Source: a virus. From it: a stretch of 44,718 nucleotides of DNA. Shown in pieces: positions 6,063 through 42,699 of the stretch. Position numbers and translations under genes: made by a program. Under the pieces are notes generated by a model. That model made no database searches. It saw nothing but the letters and a program-made list of their open reading frames with translations, and had not been told where the DNA came from. Numbering within the stretch: position 1 is the stretch's first letter; each line of letters begins with the position of its first letter. The stretch is from the IMG/VR virus record IMGVR_UViG_3300046665_000419, positions 1-44,718 of that record; one strand, given 5' to 3'.

Positions 6063-6280
6063 GAAAGCCAAAGTTCGCATTCACAATCGGCGAAAAGGTC
6101 GAGAAGACCAGCGGCTATAAATGGCCGGGCATCGTCGTGGCTCAATTCAAAACGCTCGGCGGTGAAACGCGCTATGTCGTGGAATGCACCGTTCCGGAAG
6201 TCTACGGCGCGCTTCACATCTACAATGAAGGGCAGCTATCCCGCCGCGCCGCCTTGGCTGATGAGGGAGGGAAGCAGTGA
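6059..6280 (+). CDS. Conserved alphaproteobacterial phage hypothetical protein
   Basis: 73 residues with the pattern VEKTSGYKWPGIVVAQFKTLGGETRYVVECT, an SH3-like small beta barrel seen in many rhizobial prophages. A GTG start overlaps the previous stop, with AGGAGGGGAG upstream. Role unknown; it directly precedes the excisionase-like gene in the same operon. Confidence 0.65.
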   Translation: MRKPKFAFTIGEKVEKTSGYKWPGIVVAQFKTLGGETRYVVECTVPEVYGALHIYNEGQLSRRAALADEGGKQ

Positions 6281-6519
6281 CCCGAGCCAACGCCCTCTTT
6301 CTGACCGAGGCCCAGCTTGCCGAGCGCATTGGCCTCACCACCGAGGCGTTCAAGACCGCGCTGCCCGCCCTGATGAAGTCCGGCTTCCCGGCGCCGGACC
6401 CGCTTTTTGACAAGCGCCGCTACTGGCCTGCATGCGAAGCGTTCCTTGACCGCAGGTATGGACTCGCCGCAGCATCAGGGCAGGGCACTCCCGCCCTTGA
6501 TGGAGATGAAAAATGGTAA
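6277..6519 (+). CDS. Excisionase-like helix-turn-helix protein
   Basis: 80 residues. LTEAQLAERIGLTTEAFKTALPALMKSGFPAPDPLFDKRRYWPACEAFLD matches the winged-helix arrangement of Xis/AlpA-type small DNA-binding proteins. It lies immediately upstream of, and overlaps, the integrase gene, the usual place for a recombination directionality factor. A GTG start overlaps the TGA of the previous gene. Confidence 0.65.
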   Translation: MTRANALFLTEAQLAERIGLTTEAFKTALPALMKSGFPAPDPLFDKRRYWPACEAFLDRRYGLAAASGQGTPALDGDEKW

Positions 6520-7784
6520 GCGCACCCGGCCTCAAATCGAGGCAACGGGGAAATGGCAACACGGCTCACTATTGGGTCGCAACTGCGGTTTCCAGACATG
6601 CCGGGGAATATCCCCTTAAGACCGTGCGCGTGCACGGCACAGACGATGAGATCGCTGCACGTTGCCGTGTCCTCACTTCCGAGTTGAAAGAGTGGCTGTC
6701 GGGCCGAGGACAGGGCAGCAAGCCTCAGTTCGATGGTTCGTTGCGGTCGTTGATCAAGGTCTATCAGCAGACGCCGGAAAGCCCGTACCACGATGTGAAA
6801 AGCAATACGCGGGCGATGTATGATGAAAGCCTGTCGCTGCTTGAGAAGAAGGTGGGCGACCGTCGGCTAGAGAAATTGACCGGTCTCGATTTCAAGCGCT
6901 GGTATGCGAACTTTAAAGAGCCAGCCGAGGATACGCCGAAGCAGGCAGAGCGCCGCGCCGAGGCCGCCAAACAAGGCAACCAGTTGCCACCCAATCCGGA
7001 GCGGATTCGCCGCGCGTACAAGGCGATGCAGCTTCTACGCATCATCGTCGGATTCGGTGTCGTCTCGAATATCAAAGAGTGCTTCCGGCTCAAGATGGTC
7101 TTGGAAGAGATGGAGTTTCATTCGCCGCGCGGACGATCCGAAGCCATCACCTTCGAGCAGGCCAAGTCGATCTGCGATCTGGCGGTCAAGAAGGGTCTCT
7201 ATTCCATCGCGCTCGCCCAGGCGCTGCAGTTCGAATTGACGCTGCGGCAAATCGATGTGATCGGGCGTTGGGAGAGGACGGATAATCCGCTTGATGGTGG
7301 CATCGTCGATCGCGGCCAGCGCTGGCGTGATGGCCTGCTGTGGTCGCACCTCGATAGCTCTGGCGTCCTGCTGAAGGAAACCAGCAAGGTCGAAGGCGTC
7401 ACCGCCGAGCACGACACCATGCAGTATCCGTTCCTTCGCGAGATGATCGAACACATACCGATGGAGAAGCGGTTCGGGCCGATGATCAAATCCGAGGCGA
7501 CCGGCATGCCGTATCGCTACCGGTATTTCTCATCAGTGTGGCGCTCGATCGCAACGGAAGCTGGTGTGCCGGCCCATGTATGGAACCGCGATAGCCGAGC
7601 CGGCGGAGTGACGGAAGGCTCCGATGCTGGCGCCAATCTTGAGCATCTGCGCCATCACGCGAACCATAAAAACATCGCGACGACTGCGAAATATAATCGC
7701 ACGACGCGCGAGAAAACCACGACGGTGGCGAAGCTGAGAGTCGCGCATCGAGGCGACAAGAACGCGACAGGAACAGGCGAGTAG
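6513..7784 (+). CDS. int: Tyrosine integrase
   Basis: 423 residues. Catalytic residues seen: Arg245 (LTLRQIDVIG), Arg362 (RDSRAGG), His385 (HHANHKNIATT) and Tyr394 (TAKYNR), the R...R..H..Y order of phage tyrosine recombinases. An N-terminal arm-binding region of about 60 residues and a SAM-like core-binding domain (about 70-180) precede the catalytic part. It should join attP, found 76 nt downstream, to a host tRNA-Arg gene. The start ATG 6513 overlaps the excisionase-like gene by 7 nt. As last gene of the rightward early operon it is likely under repressor control. Confidence 0.93.
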   Translation: MVSAPGLKSRQRGNGNTAHYWVATAVSRHAGEYPLKTVRVHGTDDEIAARCRVLTSELKEWLSGRGQGSKPQFDGSLRSLIKVYQQTPESPYHDVKSNTRAMYDESLSLLEKKVGDRRLEKLTGLDFKRWYANFKEPAEDTPKQAERRAEAAKQGNQLPPNPERIRRAYKAMQLLRIIVGFGVVSNIKECFRLKMVLEEMEFHSPRGRSEAITFEQAKSICDLAVKKGLYSIALAQALQFELTLRQIDVIGRWERTDNPLDGGIVDRGQRWRDGLLWSHLDSSGVLLKETSKVEGVTAEHDTMQYPFLREMIEHIPMEKRFGPMIKSEATGMPYRYRYFSSVWRSIATEAGVPAHVWNRDSRAGGVTEGSDAGANLEHLRHHANHKNIATTAKYNRTTREKTTTVAKLRVAHRGDKNATGTGE

Positions 7785-21523: not shown

Positions 21524-21931
21524 TTACGACCACTTCAAGCTGCTGAGACCCTTGGCCGCGCCGCCGGCCAGTGAGAAAAGCCCGGCGGTCTGGTAAGCCC
21601 CAGCCGCCCGATCTTGTGACGAAGCCTCGAGCCTTTTGCCGGTAACCGCCGTGACACGGTTCCGATCGCTCAGATCCTCTTGCCGCTGCTCAAGCGCAAT
21701 CCCGGTAGGACTACCGGCGCCAACGCCGGATGATGCCCGGATCGCGCGGATGTTCGAGATCGTCGACATCAGATCCTCGCGATAGGCTGTGTCGGTCTCA
21801 TTGGCCTGTACGCGTGCAAGCCCTGCCTGATCCTTCGCGTTCTGCGCGGATTGATTGTTGCCGACGAGACCGCCGACTCCGGACAAAATGCCGGAACCTG
21901 CCATGAGTGCTGCGCTTGCTCCGCCGTCCAT
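21524..21931 (-). CDS. Small internal virion protein (T7 gp14-like position)
   Basis: 135 residues, Gly/Ala-rich ends (LMAGSGILSGVGGLVG and AGLFSLAGGAAKGLSS) around a polar helix (QSAQNAKDQAGLARVQANETDTAYREDL). This composition and the location right after tail tube B match gp14-type ejection proteins that form the outer-membrane pore. The start overlaps the tail-tube stop (TAATG). Confidence 0.68.
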   Translation of the reverse strand: MDGGASAALMAGSGILSGVGGLVGNNQSAQNAKDQAGLARVQANETDTAYREDLMSTISNIRAIRASSGVGAGSPTGIALEQRQEDLSDRNRVTAVTGKRLEASSQDRAAGAYQTAGLFSLAGGAAKGLSSLKWS

Positions 21932-29375: not shown

Positions 29376-29805
29376 CCACCACGATTAAACCACCGTTGCG
29401 GAGACATTGGCGGAGAAGTGCATCGGGCCGCAAAGCACAGCCGCCCAGCCCGAGCAGATGAGCGACGGATTGAACGCATGTGAAAACTGGTTTCAGCCGC
29501 AATCTCTTGTCGTGCAGATCAGGCGCCGGCATCCTGACCACGCATCCCGAAGAGCTGTAGAACCCGATGAGGCGATCGGCCTGCTCATTGCTAACGGAGA
29601 GAATGCGGATACGGCCAGAGAGGAAGCTGAAGAAGATCCAGTTGTCCGTTGCCTCGACATAGCCGAAAGCAGACACATGCTTGTACCGGCCGAAACTCAG
29701 CCAGCGCGCCAACTTGATATCGCTGTCACGATGGAAGACGACAAACCACACCGACGGTTCGCAGCGCTCGATATCAAACCCATCATCCCGTTGACTAGAA
29801 TCCAC
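29311..29805 (-). CDS. Hypothetical late protein, possible Cys-hydrolase-like fold
   Basis: 164 residues, GTG start overlapping the large-terminase stop. SVWFVVFHRDSDIKLARWLSFGRYKHVSAFGYVEATDNWIFF contains a conserved-looking His, and FTCVQSVAHLLGLGGCALRPDALLRQCL begins a helix with Cys followed by a hydrophobic core. This His-then-Cys order recalls permuted papain-fold (NlpC-like) proteins, but it is only a resemblance. Conserved proteins of this size do occur between terminase and portal in rhizobial podoviruses. Alternative: a structural accessory protein. Confidence 0.6.
   Translation of the reverse strand: MDSSQRDDGFDIERCEPSVWFVVFHRDSDIKLARWLSFGRYKHVSAFGYVEATDNWIFFSFLSGRIRILSVSNEQADRLIGFYSSSGCVVRMPAPDLHDKRLRLKPVFTCVQSVAHLLGLGGCALRPDALLRQCLRNGGLIVVDDEHEGGRERRYEAPGAPIGA
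29430..29441 (-). promoter_or_regulatory. Late element copy E upstream of portal pair
   Basis: GCTGTGCTTTGC on the minus strand (first base differs from the other copies), 55 nt before the 53-residue gene. It lies in coding DNA of the upstream gene as Gly-Cys-Ala-Leu-Arg. Confidence 0.6.
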
Positions 29806-31405
29806 CGCGCCGCCTCGATTTCGGTCTGAAGTTTATGTTCACCGGCTCGCCATTCCCAGCGACTCCGCGATCCCTGCCGACCGCAGCTCGACCCTCGCCT
29901 GCGCCGAGCACCATGTATTGACAGGCGTCCGCAATGTCGGAATATCGATCTTTGAATGGCTTCTCGTCGTGCCTCGATGTGCCCTTGATGCGCTTGAAGT
30001 GATAGCCGCCCTCGCAGGCTACCTTCAGCGTCCGGCAATTGACGCCACAGACCAAGAAGCGCGGGCCGCCGTTGACCATCGTGATCATGGCATACTCGAC
30101 CGCCTCGATGCGGGTCTGAATGTGATTGTTCTTCACGGGCGCGGCGCGCACCGGCATGCCGAAGGATGCAAAAATATCATAGGCCGTGGTTTCGTCGGAC
30201 TGCGTTCCGTCATCACCCTTCGGATCGCCGAAGAACTCCACAGAATAGCCTTCGCGTCCTTCACGCCCGCGGGTGACATGCCATTCCCCAAGACGGCGAT
30301 CGAGGAGCTGCTTGACCAGCGGCGCGAAGATCGAGGCACCAACGCCGCGCCCGGCAATTTCCGCAAAGATCCGCCAGCGATTATTTACCAACTGCCCGAC
30401 GACACAGGCCGGGTTTCGTCCGAAGTCCAGCCCGACATAGACCGGCCAGCCAGGAATAGGCTCGAGCGCTGTTTTCGATACATGGCTGTCGGCGCTGAAC
30501 TGCCCCCACACCGGTTTACCGTCGACGAACACCGTGATCTTGTTCAAGACACGGCTGTCGATCCACTGCTTCGTCTTGCCTTTGATCTTTTCCGCGTAGT
30601 AGCCCGGCTTCAGCCACTTCGTATTCTCGGCCAGCGGGTTCATCCGGTAGCCGGTCAGCATCCCGGCGGCGTCCTTGATTTCCAACATCGCCGGCGGCTG
30701 CACATGATAAGCCCAGGTGTCCGGCCTCTGGAAAGACAGCCTTTCCTCTTCCGTCCAGTCTTCCGGCAAGGGGACCTCGCCCATCATCAGCGGAATGAAA
30801 TGATCCTCGCGCGGCGCGTTCATATCCGCCAGCACACCGTCCCACGTCGCCCCACCGTCCTTCACCGCCGGATAGCGGCCGGTTCGGCTTTCGGCTTCGT
30901 CCAAGATCGCCTTGTCGATGAATTCCAACTCGTTGAACCAGATCCCAGTGAACTCGAACGATCGCAGCTTTCGGATATCGTCCTCGCTATCGAGCGCCAG
31001 AAAGATGATTTCCATCTCGACATCGCCGATCCTGATCACATGCCGGAAAGGTCGATCCCAATAGAACCGGCCATAGGTATTCTCGGGAAACCAGTCGAGC
31101 CAGGACTTGACCGTCGTGTTCTTCAGGTCAGGGAAGGTGTTGCGAACCACCGCCCAGCGCGTCTTGCGGACCCCGTCACCGTTCGGTCGCTGCTCACACG
31201 AGATCGCCCACATCTTCATGATGCAGGCCGTCGACGTGCCCGACCCGATCGATCCGCGGATAATCGAAACGTGCTTCCGGCACTCAAGGAAATCCATCAG
31301 CACGGCGCCGTCAGGATCATAGATCTTGCGCCCGGACGGATCGAGTTCGATTGTGGGAAGGTCCAGAGGACGATCCGGCTCAATCACGTCAATCATCGGC
31401 ATCAT
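29795..31405 (-). CDS. terL: Terminase large subunit
   Basis: 536 residues. The ATPase has a Walker-A-like RGSIGSGTS at 50-58 and a Walker B/catalytic Glu in TGIWFNELEF (about 153-162). The nuclease has GLDFGR (Asp327), FFGDPKG (Asp394) and DRYSDIADACQY (Asp490/493), the RNase-H-fold metal ligands. It packages DNA into the procapsid and cuts it. It lies after the small terminase and two or three short genes, and before the portal. ATG 31405 is the first of several in-frame Met codons. Confidence 0.92.
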   Translation of the reverse strand: MMPMIDVIEPDRPLDLPTIELDPSGRKIYDPDGAVLMDFLECRKHVSIIRGSIGSGTSTACIMKMWAISCEQRPNGDGVRKTRWAVVRNTFPDLKNTTVKSWLDWFPENTYGRFYWDRPFRHVIRIGDVEMEIIFLALDSEDDIRKLRSFEFTGIWFNELEFIDKAILDEAESRTGRYPAVKDGGATWDGVLADMNAPREDHFIPLMMGEVPLPEDWTEEERLSFQRPDTWAYHVQPPAMLEIKDAAGMLTGYRMNPLAENTKWLKPGYYAEKIKGKTKQWIDSRVLNKITVFVDGKPVWGQFSADSHVSKTALEPIPGWPVYVGLDFGRNPACVVGQLVNNRWRIFAEIAGRGVGASIFAPLVKQLLDRRLGEWHVTRGREGREGYSVEFFGDPKGDDGTQSDETTAYDIFASFGMPVRAAPVKNNHIQTRIEAVEYAMITMVNGGPRFLVCGVNCRTLKVACEGGYHFKRIKGTSRHDEKPFKDRYSDIADACQYMVLGAGEGRAAVGRDRGVAGNGEPVNINFRPKSRRRGGF

Positions 31406-32089: not shown

Positions 32090-32632
32090 TCATTCGTCAT
32101 CAGGAACGTCCTCTAATGCACTCAATGGGATAGCGTCATCAACGTCCAGATGCTCTATCTGCTGGCGTCGTTCGTCCTTGCTGCGATCAATGCGGATGAC
32201 ATAGCCAGGCGTTACGCTGAGCGTGTTGTTCACCTGCACATTGACCTGTGTTGCGCCGACCTGATGCGCTCCTCTGTCCATGCCGTCGATGTACTTGGCT
32301 GCATCGAGGCGGACACGGTCACTGTCGGCCTTATCGATCAGCGATCCTATGCGGAGGAGCGCCCGAGGCTGCAGGCTCGTTCGCAACATCTCCTTCTGCT
32401 GATTGAGATAAGCAAGGACTTGTGGCTTGAGGAGGGATGCTCTTGCGGTCTCGTCAGTAATTCCAACGGCTTTCGCTGCATCCTTGCGAGGCAGACCGTC
32501 ACCGACCATCGCATCAACGAGTGCTCGTTGCTTGGGGGTGATCTTGATCGCTTTTTTTTCTTTTCGGATCTGTGCCGCTGCTTTCTGAGCGGGGACGGCG
32601 TAATCGCTTGCCGTCTTGGCCGGGAACACCAT
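32090..32632 (-). CDS. terS: Terminase small subunit
   Basis: 180 residues. ITPKQRALVDAMVGDGLPRKDAAKAVGITDETARASLLKPQVLAYLNQ is the helix-turn-helix DNA-recognition segment of small terminases. A middle oligomerisation region (LRIGSLIDKADSDRVRLDAAKYIDGMD) and an acidic tail (DVDDAIPLSALEDVPDDE) follow. It is first in the late operon, 97 nt after late element G. The G/C-rich 32027-32089 stretch after its stop holds no gene. Confidence 0.85.
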   Translation of the reverse strand: MVFPAKTASDYAVPAQKAAAQIRKEKKAIKITPKQRALVDAMVGDGLPRKDAAKAVGITDETARASLLKPQVLAYLNQQKEMLRTSLQPRALLRIGSLIDKADSDRVRLDAAKYIDGMDRGAHQVGATQVNVQVNNTLSVTPGYVIRIDRSKDERRQQIEHLDVDDAIPLSALEDVPDDE

Positions 32633-38625: not shown

Positions 38626-38950
38626 CGACGGGAATCCTCCCGGCCGGTGTCAGCATCGACGTGAAGCAGCTGATATCCGTCTTGCGCTTTTCGAGAGGGC
38701 GGAAACGATCAGGCGCGAAACCCTGCTCGACCACATCAAAAAGGCCGTCGACACAGTACGGCCGAACCGGATTGATGATCTCTTCCAGATAGACGCATAT
38801 ATTGCCAAGCGTCTCACAGACGGCGCGAACCGTGTAGATCTTACCCAACTCGGGCAGGGTGATGCCGAAATACTCGGCTTCCGAGCGAGTGAGATCGTCC
38901 CAGGCACGAACACAAACGACCTTTTGGCCGACGACGAAGTTGCACTTCAT
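38618..38950 (-). CDS. Conserved SH3-like early protein
   Basis: 110 residues from ATG 38950 (MKCNFVVGQKVVCVRAWDD...). FGITLPELGKIYTVRAVCETLGNICVYLEEIINPV and FAPDRFRPL are a pattern shared by many alphaproteobacterial phage proteins, probably an SH3-like barrel. GGGAGG lies upstream; the frame start at 39019 is not supported. Role unknown. Confidence 0.7.
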   Translation of the reverse strand: MKCNFVVGQKVVCVRAWDDLTRSEAEYFGITLPELGKIYTVRAVCETLGNICVYLEEIINPVRPYCVDGLFDVVEQGFAPDRFRPLEKRKTDISCFTSMLTPAGRIPVDA

Positions 38951-39495
38951 GCTGCCACCTCCCGGCCAACAAACCGAGGGCCGCCGACGTGCTGGACGTG
39001 GAAGCGGTACCAGGCGCAATCATCCTTGCCCTTGGTCTTTGTGCCCGGCTCCCAATTGAGCCGGCCGACAGAAACGATGTGAGAGCAGCGATCGAGGAGA
39101 AACGGCACCTTCGGCTGAACGTGGGCCAGCTTCTCTTGCGTGGTGTGAGCCCAATTCGCGTCCAGCAAGATCCACGTCGGCGCGATGCGCATGAAGCGAT
39201 CAATCATCGGGTGAAGGATATCCCGGCGCCAGGGTGGGTTCGTTATGATGGCGTCGAACACCGCCTCATCTTCGAAACGATAGCTCAAGGCATCGAGCCC
39301 ATTCTTTATGTCACCTTCATAGGTGCAGACGAGGCCAAGGGATTGAAGCTGCCCGACTAGGAAACCTTCACCCGCGCATGGTTCTGCAAACGTGGAAATT
39401 CCGCGCAGATGTGGAGCAAGAACTCTCGAGGCCGTCGGATCGATTGTCTGGTAAGCATCGCGTTCTTTGCGCTCGAAGGATGACCGTTTGCCCAT
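38947..39495 (-). CDS. DNA adenine-type methyltransferase (NPPW)
   Basis: 182 residues. FAEPCAGEGFLV (about 36-47) is the SAM-binding motif I and ITNPPWRRDIL (about 84-94) is the catalytic NPPW motif IV of N6-adenine or N4-cytosine DNA methyltransferases. It is short, lacks a visible separate recognition domain, and resembles phage methylases that protect DNA against host restriction. Target sequence cannot be read from this. It sits next to the GcrA gene, which in the host reads adenine-methylated promoters. Confidence 0.82.
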   Translation of the reverse strand: MGKRSSFERKERDAYQTIDPTASRVLAPHLRGISTFAEPCAGEGFLVGQLQSLGLVCTYEGDIKNGLDALSYRFEDEAVFDAIITNPPWRRDILHPMIDRFMRIAPTWILLDANWAHTTQEKLAHVQPKVPFLLDRCSHIVSVGRLNWEPGTKTKGKDDCAWYRFHVQHVGGPRFVGREVAA

Positions 39496-39992
39496 CAGGC
39501 CGCCCTCTCCAATGCGCTCGCAGCCTTACGCTCGCTCTCTGTGCCTCTGCCCATGGCGAGGCGAGCATGATACGGGCACCACGACTTGCCCTCGACGACA
39601 TCGTGACCGCAGAATGTGATGTCGGCCCGCTCACCTTCCGGCCAGCGGCATTCGCGCACGAAATCGGAAAGCTCCAAAAGCTTCAGACCGAGCGAGACAG
39701 GCTTGGGAATTGTCTCGACGACCGGCGGCGGTGCGCGGTCCATGAACTCTTGCAGTTCGGAGATCTTGACAGGATCAGGCTTTGCCTTGCTGCTGCGAGG
39801 CGCGCGCACGACCGGTTCAGCTTTCGGCACCAATTTTCCATGACCCAGCTTCAGGCCGAGGCGTGTGGCCTTGCCGATCACGGCGTTACGGCTGACACCG
39901 CCGAGTAGCGCCGCGATCTGCGAGGCGCTTTGATGTTCGGCCACCAGGCGCTTGAGCAACGATATGGATTCATCAGACCATGCGAAATTCAT
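39495..39992 (-). CDS. gcrA: GcrA-type cell-cycle regulator
   Basis: 165 residues. WSDESISLLKRLVAEHQSASQIAALLGGVSRNAVIGKATRLGL (about 4-47) is the GcrA N-terminal helix-turn-helix. CRWPEGE...FCGHDVVEGKSWCPYHARLA (about 125-155) is the conserved sigma70-contacting C-terminal part with Cys residues. In Caulobacter-type hosts GcrA joins sigma70 at promoters with methylated GANTC. A phage copy could retune host or phage promoters. ATG 39992 with GAGGG upstream is preferred over GTG 40004. It sits between RusA and the methyltransferase. Confidence 0.88.
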   Translation of the reverse strand: MNFAWSDESISLLKRLVAEHQSASQIAALLGGVSRNAVIGKATRLGLKLGHGKLVPKAEPVVRAPRSSKAKPDPVKISELQEFMDRAPPPVVETIPKPVSLGLKLLELSDFVRECRWPEGERADITFCGHDVVEGKSWCPYHARLAMGRGTESERKAASALERAA

Positions 39993-40000
39993 TTGAGCCC

Positions 40001-40444
40001 TCACAAAGCAATGACGGGCGCCGGCACGCCTTCGAGGCTGATTACCTCGACGACAAGCCCGGCTTTTGCCCCGAGAATTTTCCAGCAGGATGAGAACGAC
40101 ACCTGCGCATCATCGGCGTAGGCGATCTGGTTCAGTGCATCCTTGACGATCTTGGTGATGTTGTCGGCGTCTGGCTTGGTGATCTTCCACCCGCCATCGA
40201 TGGCGTTCAGACGCGCTTTCGTGGTCGACTTCGGCCAGAGATAGACGGCGGCTATCTTGAGCTGTAGCGGCCCGACCAGAGGGCCGGGGAACGCCGCCAT
40301 CTGCCGATGAGCTTCGGCGCGGATCATGCCCATGTAATCCCGCTGCCGCTTGGGCGTGAACTTGACGACGGTCTTGCCGCCGCCAGCACGAGCCCAGGGG
40401 ACGACATCGCCGGGAATGATGAACTTGATCCGCGCCGCCATCAT
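40001..40444 (-). CDS. rusA: RusA-family Holliday junction resolvase
   Basis: 147 residues. IPGDVVPWARAGGG at the start and KPDADNITKIVKDALNQIAYADDAQV near residues 95-120 carry the catalytic acidic residues (DxDN, later DD) of RusA nucleases. It should cut four-way junctions made during recombination or replication. Two ATGs (40444, 40441) are adjacent; the first overlaps the upstream stop. Confidence 0.9.
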   Translation of the reverse strand: MMAARIKFIIPGDVVPWARAGGGKTVVKFTPKRQRDYMGMIRAEAHRQMAAFPGPLVGPLQLKIAAVYLWPKSTTKARLNAIDGGWKITKPDADNITKIVKDALNQIAYADDAQVSFSSCWKILGAKAGLVVEVISLEGVPAPVIAL

Positions 40445-40974
40445 CAAGCCGCCTCTGGCGCGTCTGCCGGGTCCGCATCCGGCAAATCAGTTCCGGTATC
40501 GTCATCGTCGCCAGAATTATCGACTTGCTCGCCATCGGAATCGGCGTTTGCCTCATCTGTATCGTCGATCGGCAAATCCGGCTGATCCTTGTCGGGCTTG
40601 GCATCTGCCTTCTGACCGATGAAAGCATCAGGATTGGCGAAGATGATGATTGCCGGCTGTCCGATGTTCTCGGCGACCTTCTCGATATTGCCGACCGACG
40701 ATGCCGCAACCAACTCGGCCTTGATTTCATCCTTGACGGTGAATTTCGCGATGCGACCGAACACCGGCTCGCTGCCTTGTGCCGCAATGATCGCGACCGC
40801 CCGGCGAACAATGGTTTCCGTCGCATTCGTGATCGCATAGATCTTGTCTGCCTGCGCCTGCTCGCTCAGCTTCGACCAGGGAGTCTCCATGCTGCGAATG
40901 TGGGTCAGCATCACGTCGCGGAGATCGCCACTCAGGGTTTCGGCCGCCAAATCTTCGGTACTCTTGTCAGTCAT
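40444..40974 (-). CDS. Conserved early protein with acidic tail
   Basis: 176 residues (MTDKSTEDLAAETLSGDLRDVMLTHIRSMETPWSKLSEQAQ...). The first about 135 residues form a helical then beta domain. The last about 45 are strongly acidic (DDTDEANADSDGEQVDNSGDDDDTGTD), like DNA-mimic or single-strand-binding-protein tails. I do not recognise the family. ATG 40974 with GGAG upstream is preferred to 41088. Confidence 0.68.
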   Translation of the reverse strand: MTDKSTEDLAAETLSGDLRDVMLTHIRSMETPWSKLSEQAQADKIYAITNATETIVRRAVAIIAAQGSEPVFGRIAKFTVKDEIKAELVAASSVGNIEKVAENIGQPAIIIFANPDAFIGQKADAKPDKDQPDLPIDDTDEANADSDGEQVDNSGDDDDTGTDLPDADPADAPEAA

Positions 40975-41050
40975 TGTCCATCGCTCCAATGCTCTTCGAA
41001 GGGTGATGACCTGCAGACGCGAGAAGAGCGTCACAGCCGGCAGGAATTGA

Positions 41051-41158
41051 TTAGAAGATCCGGCGGCGCGGTCGCATCTCGCGCGCAACGCTAATGACGG
41101 ACAGCACCATGACGGCGGTCACGATCATGGCGGCGAGGATCGCAGAGACGATAACCAT
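41051..41158 (-). CDS. 35-residue membrane peptide
   Basis: MVIVSAILAAMIVTAVMVLSVISVAREMRPRRRIF: one membrane helix followed by a strongly basic end. Its ATG overlaps the previous stop (TGATG-type coupling), supporting translation. Function unknown. Confidence 0.58.
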   Translation of the reverse strand: MVIVSAILAAMIVTAVMVLSVISVAREMRPRRRIF

Positions 41159-41340
41159 CAGCGATCTCCCATGATGTCGGTATGGCGGTGGGTGATCGGT
41201 GCGCCATCATCGCCGCGCAGAGGGCCAGCCTTCTTGCGGCGGCGGATCAGCACACGGATACCGGCATCCTTGCAGACGACCGAGAGACGGTAGAACCAGC
41301 TCGACAACTGCAGCAGGCGGTCAGCAACGAAATCTCGCAT
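41158..41340 (-). CDS. 60-residue early protein
   Basis: MRDFVADRLLQLSSWFYRLSVVCKDAGIRVLIRRRKKAGPLRGDDGAPITHRHTDIMGDR: a helical start with a mixed hydrophobic face, then a basic loop. AGGGAGG is upstream of ATG 41340; the longer frame start at 41385 is not supported. No family recognised. Confidence 0.6.
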   Translation of the reverse strand: MRDFVADRLLQLSSWFYRLSVVCKDAGIRVLIRRRKKAGPLRGDDGAPITHRHTDIMGDR

Positions 41341-41714
41341 TACTTCATCCTCCCTTTGATCTTTTCGAGCTGGTCGCGATGCCAATCGAGCTTCGCTTCA
41401 AGCTCCGCGATCTGAACGCCGCGTTCGAATTCCTTCCACCAGCGCGTGCCAGAGCCTTCCATGATGGATTGCAGCAGCTCGAAGCCGGCGTCAGAGCGCA
41501 GCAGGTTCACGAGAGCGTCGGCGCCCGGTTCGGTCCGGCCCTCAAGCCACAGCTTCGCAGCGCGCTCCGAGATTTCGGCACGGCTGGCGAGATTGATGGC
41601 GGTCTTGGAAGGCCAGAGACGGCGCGCCATGGCACACACGGCTTCCACAGGGGGAATCCGCTTACCGTGCTTCGTGAATCCAGACGCGGCAAAGAAAGAC
41701 GATTGTGCCGACAT
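41340..41714 (-). CDS. Conserved early regulatory-type protein
   Basis: 124 residues. The middle (AVCAMARRLWPSKTAINLASRAEISERAAKLWLEGRTEPGADALVNLLRSDAGFELLQSIM) reads like a helix-turn-helix region, and the end (IAELEAKLDWHRDQLEKIKGRMK) is a coiled coil, so a DNA-binding dimer is possible. Second gene of the leftward early operon; the place suggests a CII/antitermination-type regulator, unproven. Stop overlaps the next ATG. Confidence 0.62.
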   Translation of the reverse strand: MSAQSSFFAASGFTKHGKRIPPVEAVCAMARRLWPSKTAINLASRAEISERAAKLWLEGRTEPGADALVNLLRSDAGFELLQSIMEGSGTRWWKEFERGVQIAELEAKLDWHRDQLEKIKGRMK

Positions 41715-41968
41715 CAAGCCACCTCGACGGAGGCAACCGCGTTAGCAGGAGCGTCGAAGAGGTCAGGCCGGATCACCCACTTCGGCACGACGCCGCCAGT
41801 GGAGTTGTGAATAGCCACGGCTAGTTCCGCAGCCGGTTCATTTTCGCGGTTTAGAGCTCTCGAAATCGTCTGCTGGGAAAAGCAGCCGATATTTTCAACA
41901 AGTTTAGCCTGCGAGCCAAAGAACTCGACGGCCAAAACCATTCCTGGGTGCTGTTCAGCGCTTTGCAT
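41714..41968 (-). CDS. Cro/YdaS-like repressor protein
   Basis: 84 residues. AVEFFGSQAKLVENIGCFSQQTISRALNRENEPAAELAVAIHNSTGGVVPKWVIRPDLF is the YdaS/Cro-type helix-turn-helix with the usual ST-G-GVV...RPDLF end. It is the first leftward gene, divergent from the S24 repressor, the classic Cro position. It likely competes with the repressor at the operators in 42006-42040. Confidence 0.82.
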   Translation of the reverse strand: MQSAEQHPGMVLAVEFFGSQAKLVENIGCFSQQTISRALNRENEPAAELAVAIHNSTGGVVPKWVIRPDLFDAPANAVASVEVA

Positions 41969-42075: not shown

Positions 42076-42699
42076 ATGGACAAGACATTTGGACAACAGG
42101 TGCGCGAAGAGCGCGAGCGGCGCGGCTGGAGTCAGCAGGCGCTTGCTGATGCTGCCAACACAACGCAGCAATCTATCGATCGCATCGAGAGGGATGCCGT
42201 TAGGCGGTCGCGGTCGCATATCGAGGTGGCATCAGTCCTCGACATCGCTCTGCCTGCGAAATTTGCAAACAACGCTGCGGTCTCAGGCCCTGCAAACCTC
42301 GATGCGAATTCCAAGCTTCCAGCCTACGGCCAGGCGATCGGCGGCGCATACGGCGAGTTCATGCTTAATGGAAACAAGATCGATGACATCTTAGCGCCGC
42401 CCGGATTGTTGGGCATACGAGACGCCTATGCCGTCTATGTCAGCGGCGAAAGCATGGAGCCGCGCTATTTCGCTGGCGAAGTCCTTTTCATCAATCCCCG
42501 TCTGCCAATCCGACGGGGCGATTTCGTTGTCGCGCAGATTGCCCAGGATGAGCATTCCGCGCCTCTCGCCTACGTGAAGCGATTTGTTTCAAAGCAAGGA
42601 ACACTCAGGCTCGAACAGTTCAACCCACCGGAAGTCCTTGAATTTGACAGTGCCGATGTTGTGTCGGTGCATAAGGTTGTGATGTCGGGTGAAGGCTAA
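42076..42699 (+). CDS. CI-like S24 phage repressor
   Basis: 207 residues. The N-terminal XRE helix-turn-helix (VREERERRGWSQQALADAANTTQQSIDRIER, about 9-40) is followed by a linker and a LexA/CI-type S24 domain with Ser126 (GESMEP) and Lys168 (YVKRF), the catalytic pair. The self-cleavage site is not obvious; Ala-Ile-Gly-Gly (87-90) is a weak candidate, so cleavage on DNA damage is likely but uncertain. No good ribosome site precedes ATG 42076, suggesting weak or leaderless translation. It should bind the ACTCGAT-type operators on both sides. Confidence 0.9.
   Translation: MDKTFGQQVREERERRGWSQQALADAANTTQQSIDRIERDAVRRSRSHIEVASVLDIALPAKFANNAAVSGPANLDANSKLPAYGQAIGGAYGEFMLNGNKIDDILAPPGLLGIRDAYAVYVSGESMEPRYFAGEVLFINPRLPIRRGDFVVAQIAQDEHSAPLAYVKRFVSKQGTLRLEQFNPPEVLEFDSADVVSVHKVVMSGEG

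Follow-up and report, generated by a model that had tools for sequence, protein, structure and literature searches.

Why phages carry cell-cycle regulators is the question raised by the stretch of DNA analyzed here (the window; 44,718 nt), an IMG/VR virus record in which a gene for a GcrA-like protein adjoins a gene for an adenine-type DNA methyltransferase. The genes of the window include those for an integrase, a terminase, a major head protein, and the tail, and prophages related to it occur in Rhizobium, Ferranicluibacter, Gellertiella, and other Rhizobiales. The best explanation of the locus takes as its premise that the window is a temperate phage of Rhizobiales-type hosts. At both contig ends (1-170 and 44510-44718), a 12-bp unit, GTCTGCGGCGRR, is repeated in tandem, several of the units containing GAGTC, and the contig break probably lies within one such GTCTGCGGCGRR array.

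Organization of the locus and the GcrA-like protein

The two genes are part of an early operon (Table 1), which runs from a cro-like gene over orf41340, a gene of PHROG 6576, and a gene for a RusA-like resolvase to gcrA and the methyltransferase gene, followed by HNH and primosomal genes. A gene coding for a CI-like repressor is divergent from this operon and precedes the cro-like gene. The methyltransferase gene is located directly 3' of gcrA, the stop codon of the latter and the start codon of the former overlapping as TGATG (39497-39493). The end of the RusA gene is separated by 8 bp from the start of gcrA, for which an alternative GTG start is also open at 40004. The order of the genes for YdaS, orf41340, orf40444, RusA, GcrA, and the methyltransferase is conserved among many relatives, and the order RusA-GcrA-methyltransferase is constant in close relatives. 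The first-pass annotation had read the locus as a full GcrA beside an adenine-type methyltransferase in one operon, which was confirmed by the Pfam, PDB, and PHROG matches and by the TGATG overlap.

Table 1. Coordinates of the features of the window discussed in the text
Feature	Coordinates	Strand	Basis or remark
Small ORF overlapping the integrase start, in an excisionase-like position; holds a GANTC	6277..6519	+	weak HTH_24
GANTC (GGACTC) within ORF 6277-6519, 52 bp before the start of the integrase	6461..6465	+	kept in 13/13 genomes
Tyrosine integrase, candidate target gene	6513..7784	+	PHROG 1 integrase, 1.2e-8
Small N6-adenine-type DNA methyltransferase, 182 aa, without separate target-recognition domain	38947..39495	-	PHROG 799, 2.4e-24
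gcrA-like gene, predicted sigma70 cofactor, 165 aa from ATG	39495..39992	-	Pfam GcrA, Caulobacter GcrA structures
RusA-like Holliday junction resolvase, same operon, adjoining gcrA upstream	40001..40447	-	Pfam RusA, 2.6e-21
orf40444, conserved phage protein, same operon	40444..41088	-	PHROG match (PHROG 6576)
orf41340, small protein of HTH type, following the cro-like gene where lambda has cII; 5' end holds the GATTC pair	41340..41714	-	weak HTH_3
GATTC pair, 22 bp apart, in the 5' coding end of orf41340	41654..41680	-	GAATC on + at 41654 and 41676
cro-like YdaS/HTH regulator, head of the early operon	41714..41968	-	PF15943, 4.8e-7 (just below cut-off); PHROG 35, 6.9e-11
CI-like repressor (HTH and S24 peptidase)	42076..42699	+	Pfam S24, 1.2e-11

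The GcrA-like protein of the window matched PF07750 (E-value 5e-31; 108.6 bits, cut-off 26.9) over residues 4-155 of its 165 residues and over positions 2-153 of the 155 positions of the model. In addition, residues 4-157 aligned with the full-length GcrA of Caulobacter (7ye1), and residues 1-47 matched crystal structures of the DNA-binding domain (5yiu group; E-value 7.7e-11). As the PF07750, 7ye1, and 5yiu matches cover them, both the DNA-binding domain and the sigma-contact domain are present. In the sigma-contact domain, the C..C..C..H residues are invariant across 41 phage and 24 chromosomal GcrAs. In the DNA-binding domain, the recognition helix is altered, reading KATR in the window versus KVHR in chromosomal GcrAs; furthermore, the window protein has a valine where all chromosomal GcrAs keep a tryptophan. 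The mean identity among chromosomal GcrAs is 87% in the DNA-binding domain and 62% in the sigma-contact domain; phage GcrAs have diversified in both (41% and 36%, respectively). Homology suggests that the GcrA of the window contacts both sigma70-RNA polymerase and methylated GANTC.

A high-scoring chromosomal GcrA was retrieved from all 24 host genomes searched, together with a lower-scoring second copy in most of them. In the phylogenetic tree, the host GcrAs cluster with a few phage sequences (97/92). A recent capture of gcrA from a host is unsupported, as the GcrA of the window falls outside this cluster. Several variant forms of GcrA were found as well. Five records (L010, L024, L069, L089, and L090) combine a longer, altered N-terminal domain of the SRNAVIGYYARH type with a standard sigma-contact domain, and L007 (1831-2502) encodes a GcrA-like protein with two tandem matches to the DNA-binding domain before one sigma-contact domain. 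Two phage or prophage copies (G029 C1:15999-16490 and G038 C1:358782-359354) are GcrA frames, each interrupted by a single stop codon (TGA, TAG). The GcrA profile also exceeded its cut-off in a control genome, namely that of the archaeon Sulfolobus acidocaldarius.

The methyltransferase and its predicted target

The methyltransferase of the window contains FAEPCAGEG as motif I and NPPW as motif IV. Pfam yielded a sub-threshold Eco57I match alone (0.072). PHROG 799 ('DNA methyltransferase') is common to this protein and phiLM21_p027, for which the pairwise BLASTP match was weak (E-value 0.034) and the alignment of both families by hhalign reached 99% (E-value 5.9e-18). This supports a relationship of the methyltransferase family to GANTC-specific phage enzymes. 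An AF2 model of the protein (mean pLDDT 85) found its best PDB folds in the M subunit of a type I restriction enzyme and in rRNA adenine methyltransferases of the Dim1/KsgA type; the TM-scores were modest (around 0.5), and these matches fit with an adenine-N6 enzyme. The earlier designation as an NPPW methyltransferase holds for the window protein itself but not as an invariant of its close relatives, in which motif IV drifts to NTPW, NVPW, NIPW, and NFPW (L011, L013, L014, L022, L023, and L024), with its Asn and second Pro invariant among the methyltransferase relatives. The drifting motif resembles the N-x-P-aromatic motif of rRNA adenine dimethylases.

Concerning the target, phiLM21_p027 has been tested as GANTC-specific (PMC5537653), and three 179-aa methyltransferases of Paracoccus prophages have been shown to methylate GANTC (PMC3925955). 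An alignment of putative CcrM-like enzymes includes AMO44073 of phage DSS3P8 (PMC5537653); the latter protein was found to be a homologue of the window methyltransferase. NPP(Y/F/W) phage methyltransferases near replication modules have been proposed as CcrM mimics (PMC5537653), and the methyltransferase of the window adjoins the replication module, between RusA and the primosomal DUF1376 gene. Furthermore, of the Rhizobium phages RHph_I3_18 and RHph_Y25, one carries a methyltransferase of the window type and the other one of the phiLM21 type at the same position. These phages are 83% identical in RusA and 59% and 83% identical in the two genes after the methyltransferase, and their phiLM21-type methyltransferase is 87% identical to the tested enzyme. 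Such a replacement in place suggests that both types do the same job. Given this replacement and the kinship with GANTC-specific phage methyltransferases, methylation of GANTC is the likeliest activity predicted for the window enzyme.

The linkage of both genes turned out to be recurrent. Among 48 nonredundant loci of the methyltransferase family, GcrA was located within 300 bp in 20 loci, within 1.5 kb in 5 more, and further away in 7, and 16 loci were without it. In most linked loci, GcrA was upstream of the methyltransferase, and it was downstream in L028, L032, and L078; because both gene orders occur, the neighborhood is not only one inherited block. When viral records were retrieved with the GcrA or the methyltransferase protein, 27 of the 32 contained a GcrA above the Pfam cut-off. 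No methyltransferase of the A1 type was found near GcrA in L004 and L006-L009. The divergence of the window methyltransferase from the tested enzymes, the drift of its motif IV, and the 16 loci without GcrA would all suit an enzyme that shields phage DNA from host restriction at other or relaxed sites, GcrA redirecting sigma70 separately and the adjacency being an inherited early-operon module. Such a division of tasks is nevertheless very improbable, since the window-type enzyme shares its family with GANTC enzymes and is replaced in place by an enzyme nearly identical to a proven one, and GcrA is found downstream of the methyltransferase too.

GANTC sites near the integrase and in the early operon

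Comparison of the window with 12 relatives (13 genomes) pointed to a GANTC upstream of the integrase gene and a pair of GATTC sites in orf41340. The integrase-proximal GGACTC lies 52-58 bp from the integrase start across the 13 genomes and is accompanied by TTGA(C/T), the first base of which lies 15 nt before GANTC. About 60 bp upstream of this conserved GANTC, the pre-integrase ORF contains a terminator-like hairpin with a T tail (6378-6399). The GATTC pair was present in 13 of the 13 genomes and in each of the 19 distinct orf41340 sequences. Its flanks vary, with R, K, T, G, or W before Ile and R or P behind it, and GATTC stays; it is also retained where the encoded Gly-Phe of orf41340 has become Arg-Phe.

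As the integrase site and the GATTC pair both lie in coding sequence, conservation of the proteins must be excluded. A rare-codon test was performed on 2,315 codon columns whose encoded residue is invariant across the 13 related genomes, kinship being ignored. The codon GGA (9.5% of the Gly codons) was fixed in two of 295 Gly columns, which are those of the integrase site and of the first site of the pair. Similarly, ATT (15%) was fixed in one of 69 Ile columns, that of the second site of the pair, and CTT (15%) in one of 181 Leu columns, in which it gives rise to the TTGA(C/T) just before the integrase GANTC. This test alone separates the sites from ordinary coding conservation. It provides strong evidence, drawn from related genomes, pointing to a DNA-level function at the integrase site and the GATTC pair, in keeping with conservation, as DNA, of the GANTC sites in both places in phages with the gene pair. 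Fixed rare codons were also encountered elsewhere, as possible further DNA-level signals, namely a cluster of AAA, AGG, and GGT in the terminase alignment (29795-31396, minus strand), CAA and CGA in 21524-21904 (minus strand), and AAA, TTG, and GTT in a putative small terminase (32090-32629, minus strand).

Other types of evidence were set aside. A plain count of conserved GANTC sites was rejected, as conservation is at least as frequent for other palindromes. Of the NNxNN palindromes, GANTC shows the strongest depletion in the window and in each of the 12 relatives, with observed/expected ratios of 0.23-0.34; this depletion is uninformative about the gene pair, because it extends to host DNA (0.45) and to relatives devoid of the pair (0.29-0.30). 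A scan for consensus sigma70 promoters at the integrase site and the early-operon pair found none. Nor can the TTGA box serve as proof of a promoter, since phages without the gene pair likewise retain the Leu-Asp-Arg encoded there, although CTT is fixed.

As judged from these comparisons, the sites appear largely to follow the pair of GcrA and methyltransferase genes. Every fetched orf41340 homologue from records with both genes that cover the region had the GATTC pair. Two records contain neither gene: in L192, the same Gly-Phe is encoded by GGC TTC and the GATTC pair is absent, and L191 keeps one GATTC site. A fragment with GcrA and without such a methyltransferase (L193) has no GATTC site. 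The integrase GANTC occurred in 20 of 24 records with both genes, not all of which are independent, the four records without the site (L219-L222) being one clade; it was absent in the five nearest integrase homologues from records with neither gene (L226-228, L230, and L231). This co-occurrence of sites and gene pair is confounded by ancestry, because the control records without the pair are few and more distant.

The sites could also be operators of the HTH protein of orf41340, of Cro, or of CI, with a recognition sequence that merely contains GANTC and that methylation may modulate, GcrA and the methyltransferase being neighbors for other reasons. Indeed, the positions of the sites are those at which CII of lambda acts, a weak HTH match was obtained for orf41340, and the exact spacing of 22 bp within the pair corresponds to about two helical turns. 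This makes an improbable explanation, however, as the central base is T in the pair and C at the integrase, as GANTC predicts, the sites track GcrA and the methyltransferase, and the cro gene preceding the pair is not conserved.

In L010 and L024, the DNA-binding domain of GcrA is altered and the GANTC sites are kept. Because the sites persist despite such alteration of the phage protein, host GcrA or the orf41340 protein comes into consideration as a possible reader. The sites might thus be methylated by host CcrM and acted upon by a methylation-sensitive protein such as chromosomal GcrA, which would link the prophage to the cell cycle of the host; the GcrA and methyltransferase of the phage would then only boost or replace the host factors during infection. 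The chromosomal GcrA present in all 24 host genomes, with its well-conserved DNA-binding domain (87% mean identity), favors this possibility, as do the sites kept alongside a much altered phage domain. Reading by the host is still rather unlikely, given that the gene homologues in related phages without the pair, whatever the hosts of these may be, do not keep GANTC.

Apart from these sites, seven copies of CTGTGCTTTG, probably a late promoter element, occur on the minus strand before late genes of the window (9735, 13397, 24674, 27486, 29431, 31814, and 32730), and the 12 relatives contain one to seven copies each. One of the seven copies in the window and six of 65 over 13 genomes have a GANTC at a distance of up to 60 bp, which is no excess over the density of GANTC. 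The suggestion in the first-pass annotation that GcrA is a co-activator of this late element was therefore abandoned.

A possible phage-borne switch compared with known systems

The preferred reading, which stands about an even chance of being correct, is that the locus represents a phage-borne version of the epigenetic GcrA/CcrM switch of the host, with the methyltransferase as writer and GcrA as reader. As its family suggests, the methyltransferase would place m6A on GANTC of the phage DNA, as host CcrM does, and newly replicated phage DNA would thereby be methylated independently of the host cell cycle. By homology, the C-terminal domain of the phage GcrA would bind sigma70-RNA polymerase and its N-terminal domain methylated GANTC. 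The resulting complex may act at the site upstream of the integrase and at the GATTC pair heading the operon of gcrA and the methyltransferase gene, the sites themselves being conserved. Integration and expression of the early operon would then be tied to the methylation of the phage DNA, and hence to its state of replication. The GANTC sites may be shared with host GcrA.

A more specific form of this writer-reader switch is tentative, and somewhat more probably wrong than right. It would be a self-contained lysis-lysogeny switch, in which GANTC methylation licenses integrase transcription and early-operon feedback, so that the replication state of the phage DNA is read and GcrA plays the role of CII with m6A as the signal. 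The hosts of these phages generally carry CcrM as well. As the relevant hosts thus possess both CcrM and a chromosomal GcrA, it is possible but not required that the pair lets phage DNA use GcrA without host methylation, as had been proposed at first.

Phage GcrAs and GANTC-mimicking methyltransferases are each known already, having been reported apart with their roles guessed; the conserved pair, found here as a recurrent one, and its candidate target sites are new. As these sites seem to be kept by selection on synonymous positions, they indicate specific places where the pair could act, and the question why phages carry cell-cycle regulators narrows to two places, a single site near the integrase and a pair in the early operon. 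If the proposal is true, the phage possesses a control circuit whose transcription activator, encoded by the phage itself, reads DNA methylation.

The GcrA/CcrM system of Caulobacter and other Alphaproteobacteria resembles the phage pair in its two-domain GcrA, its adenine methyltransferase, GANTC as the likely mark, and, by homology, the sigma70 cofactor mechanism (PMC3667746, PMC7403470). In contrast with the host system, the phage genes are adjacent in one operon and the DNA-binding domain of the phage GcrA has diverged. The motif of CcrM is DPPY. Unlike CcrM, the phage methyltransferase comprises about 180 aa, is without the C-terminal domain, and contains NPPW.

GcrA family proteins encoded by phages include gp222 of phiCbK (PMC3556154) and that of brucellaphage Y17 (PMC11836647), and the parts of these accounts considered propose that they alter host transcription (PMC3556154, PMC11836647); in the same parts, neither a GcrA-methyltransferase pair nor conserved GANTC target sites are reported. 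The GANTC-specific methyltransferases of Paracoccus aminophilus prophages and phiLM21_p027, phi2LM21_p21, and phi3LM21_p21 are, as in the window, small NPPW/F/Y adenine methyltransferases near the replication module (PMC3925955, PMC5537653). The subfamily of the window differs in being divergent from phiLM21_p027, with a predicted GANTC specificity and a variable motif IV, and the report on the GANTC-specific phage enzymes does not mention GcrA (PMC5537653).

Finally, the candidate activator sites of the window, one integrase-proximal in an upstream gene and one just after cro, recall the CII protein of phage lambda, as a likeness in working only. Lambda CII acts at PI, the integrase promoter, which lies inside the preceding gene, and at PRE, just after cro. 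GcrA is without homology to CII, however, the phage promoters are putative, and the signal proposed for the window is DNA methylation.
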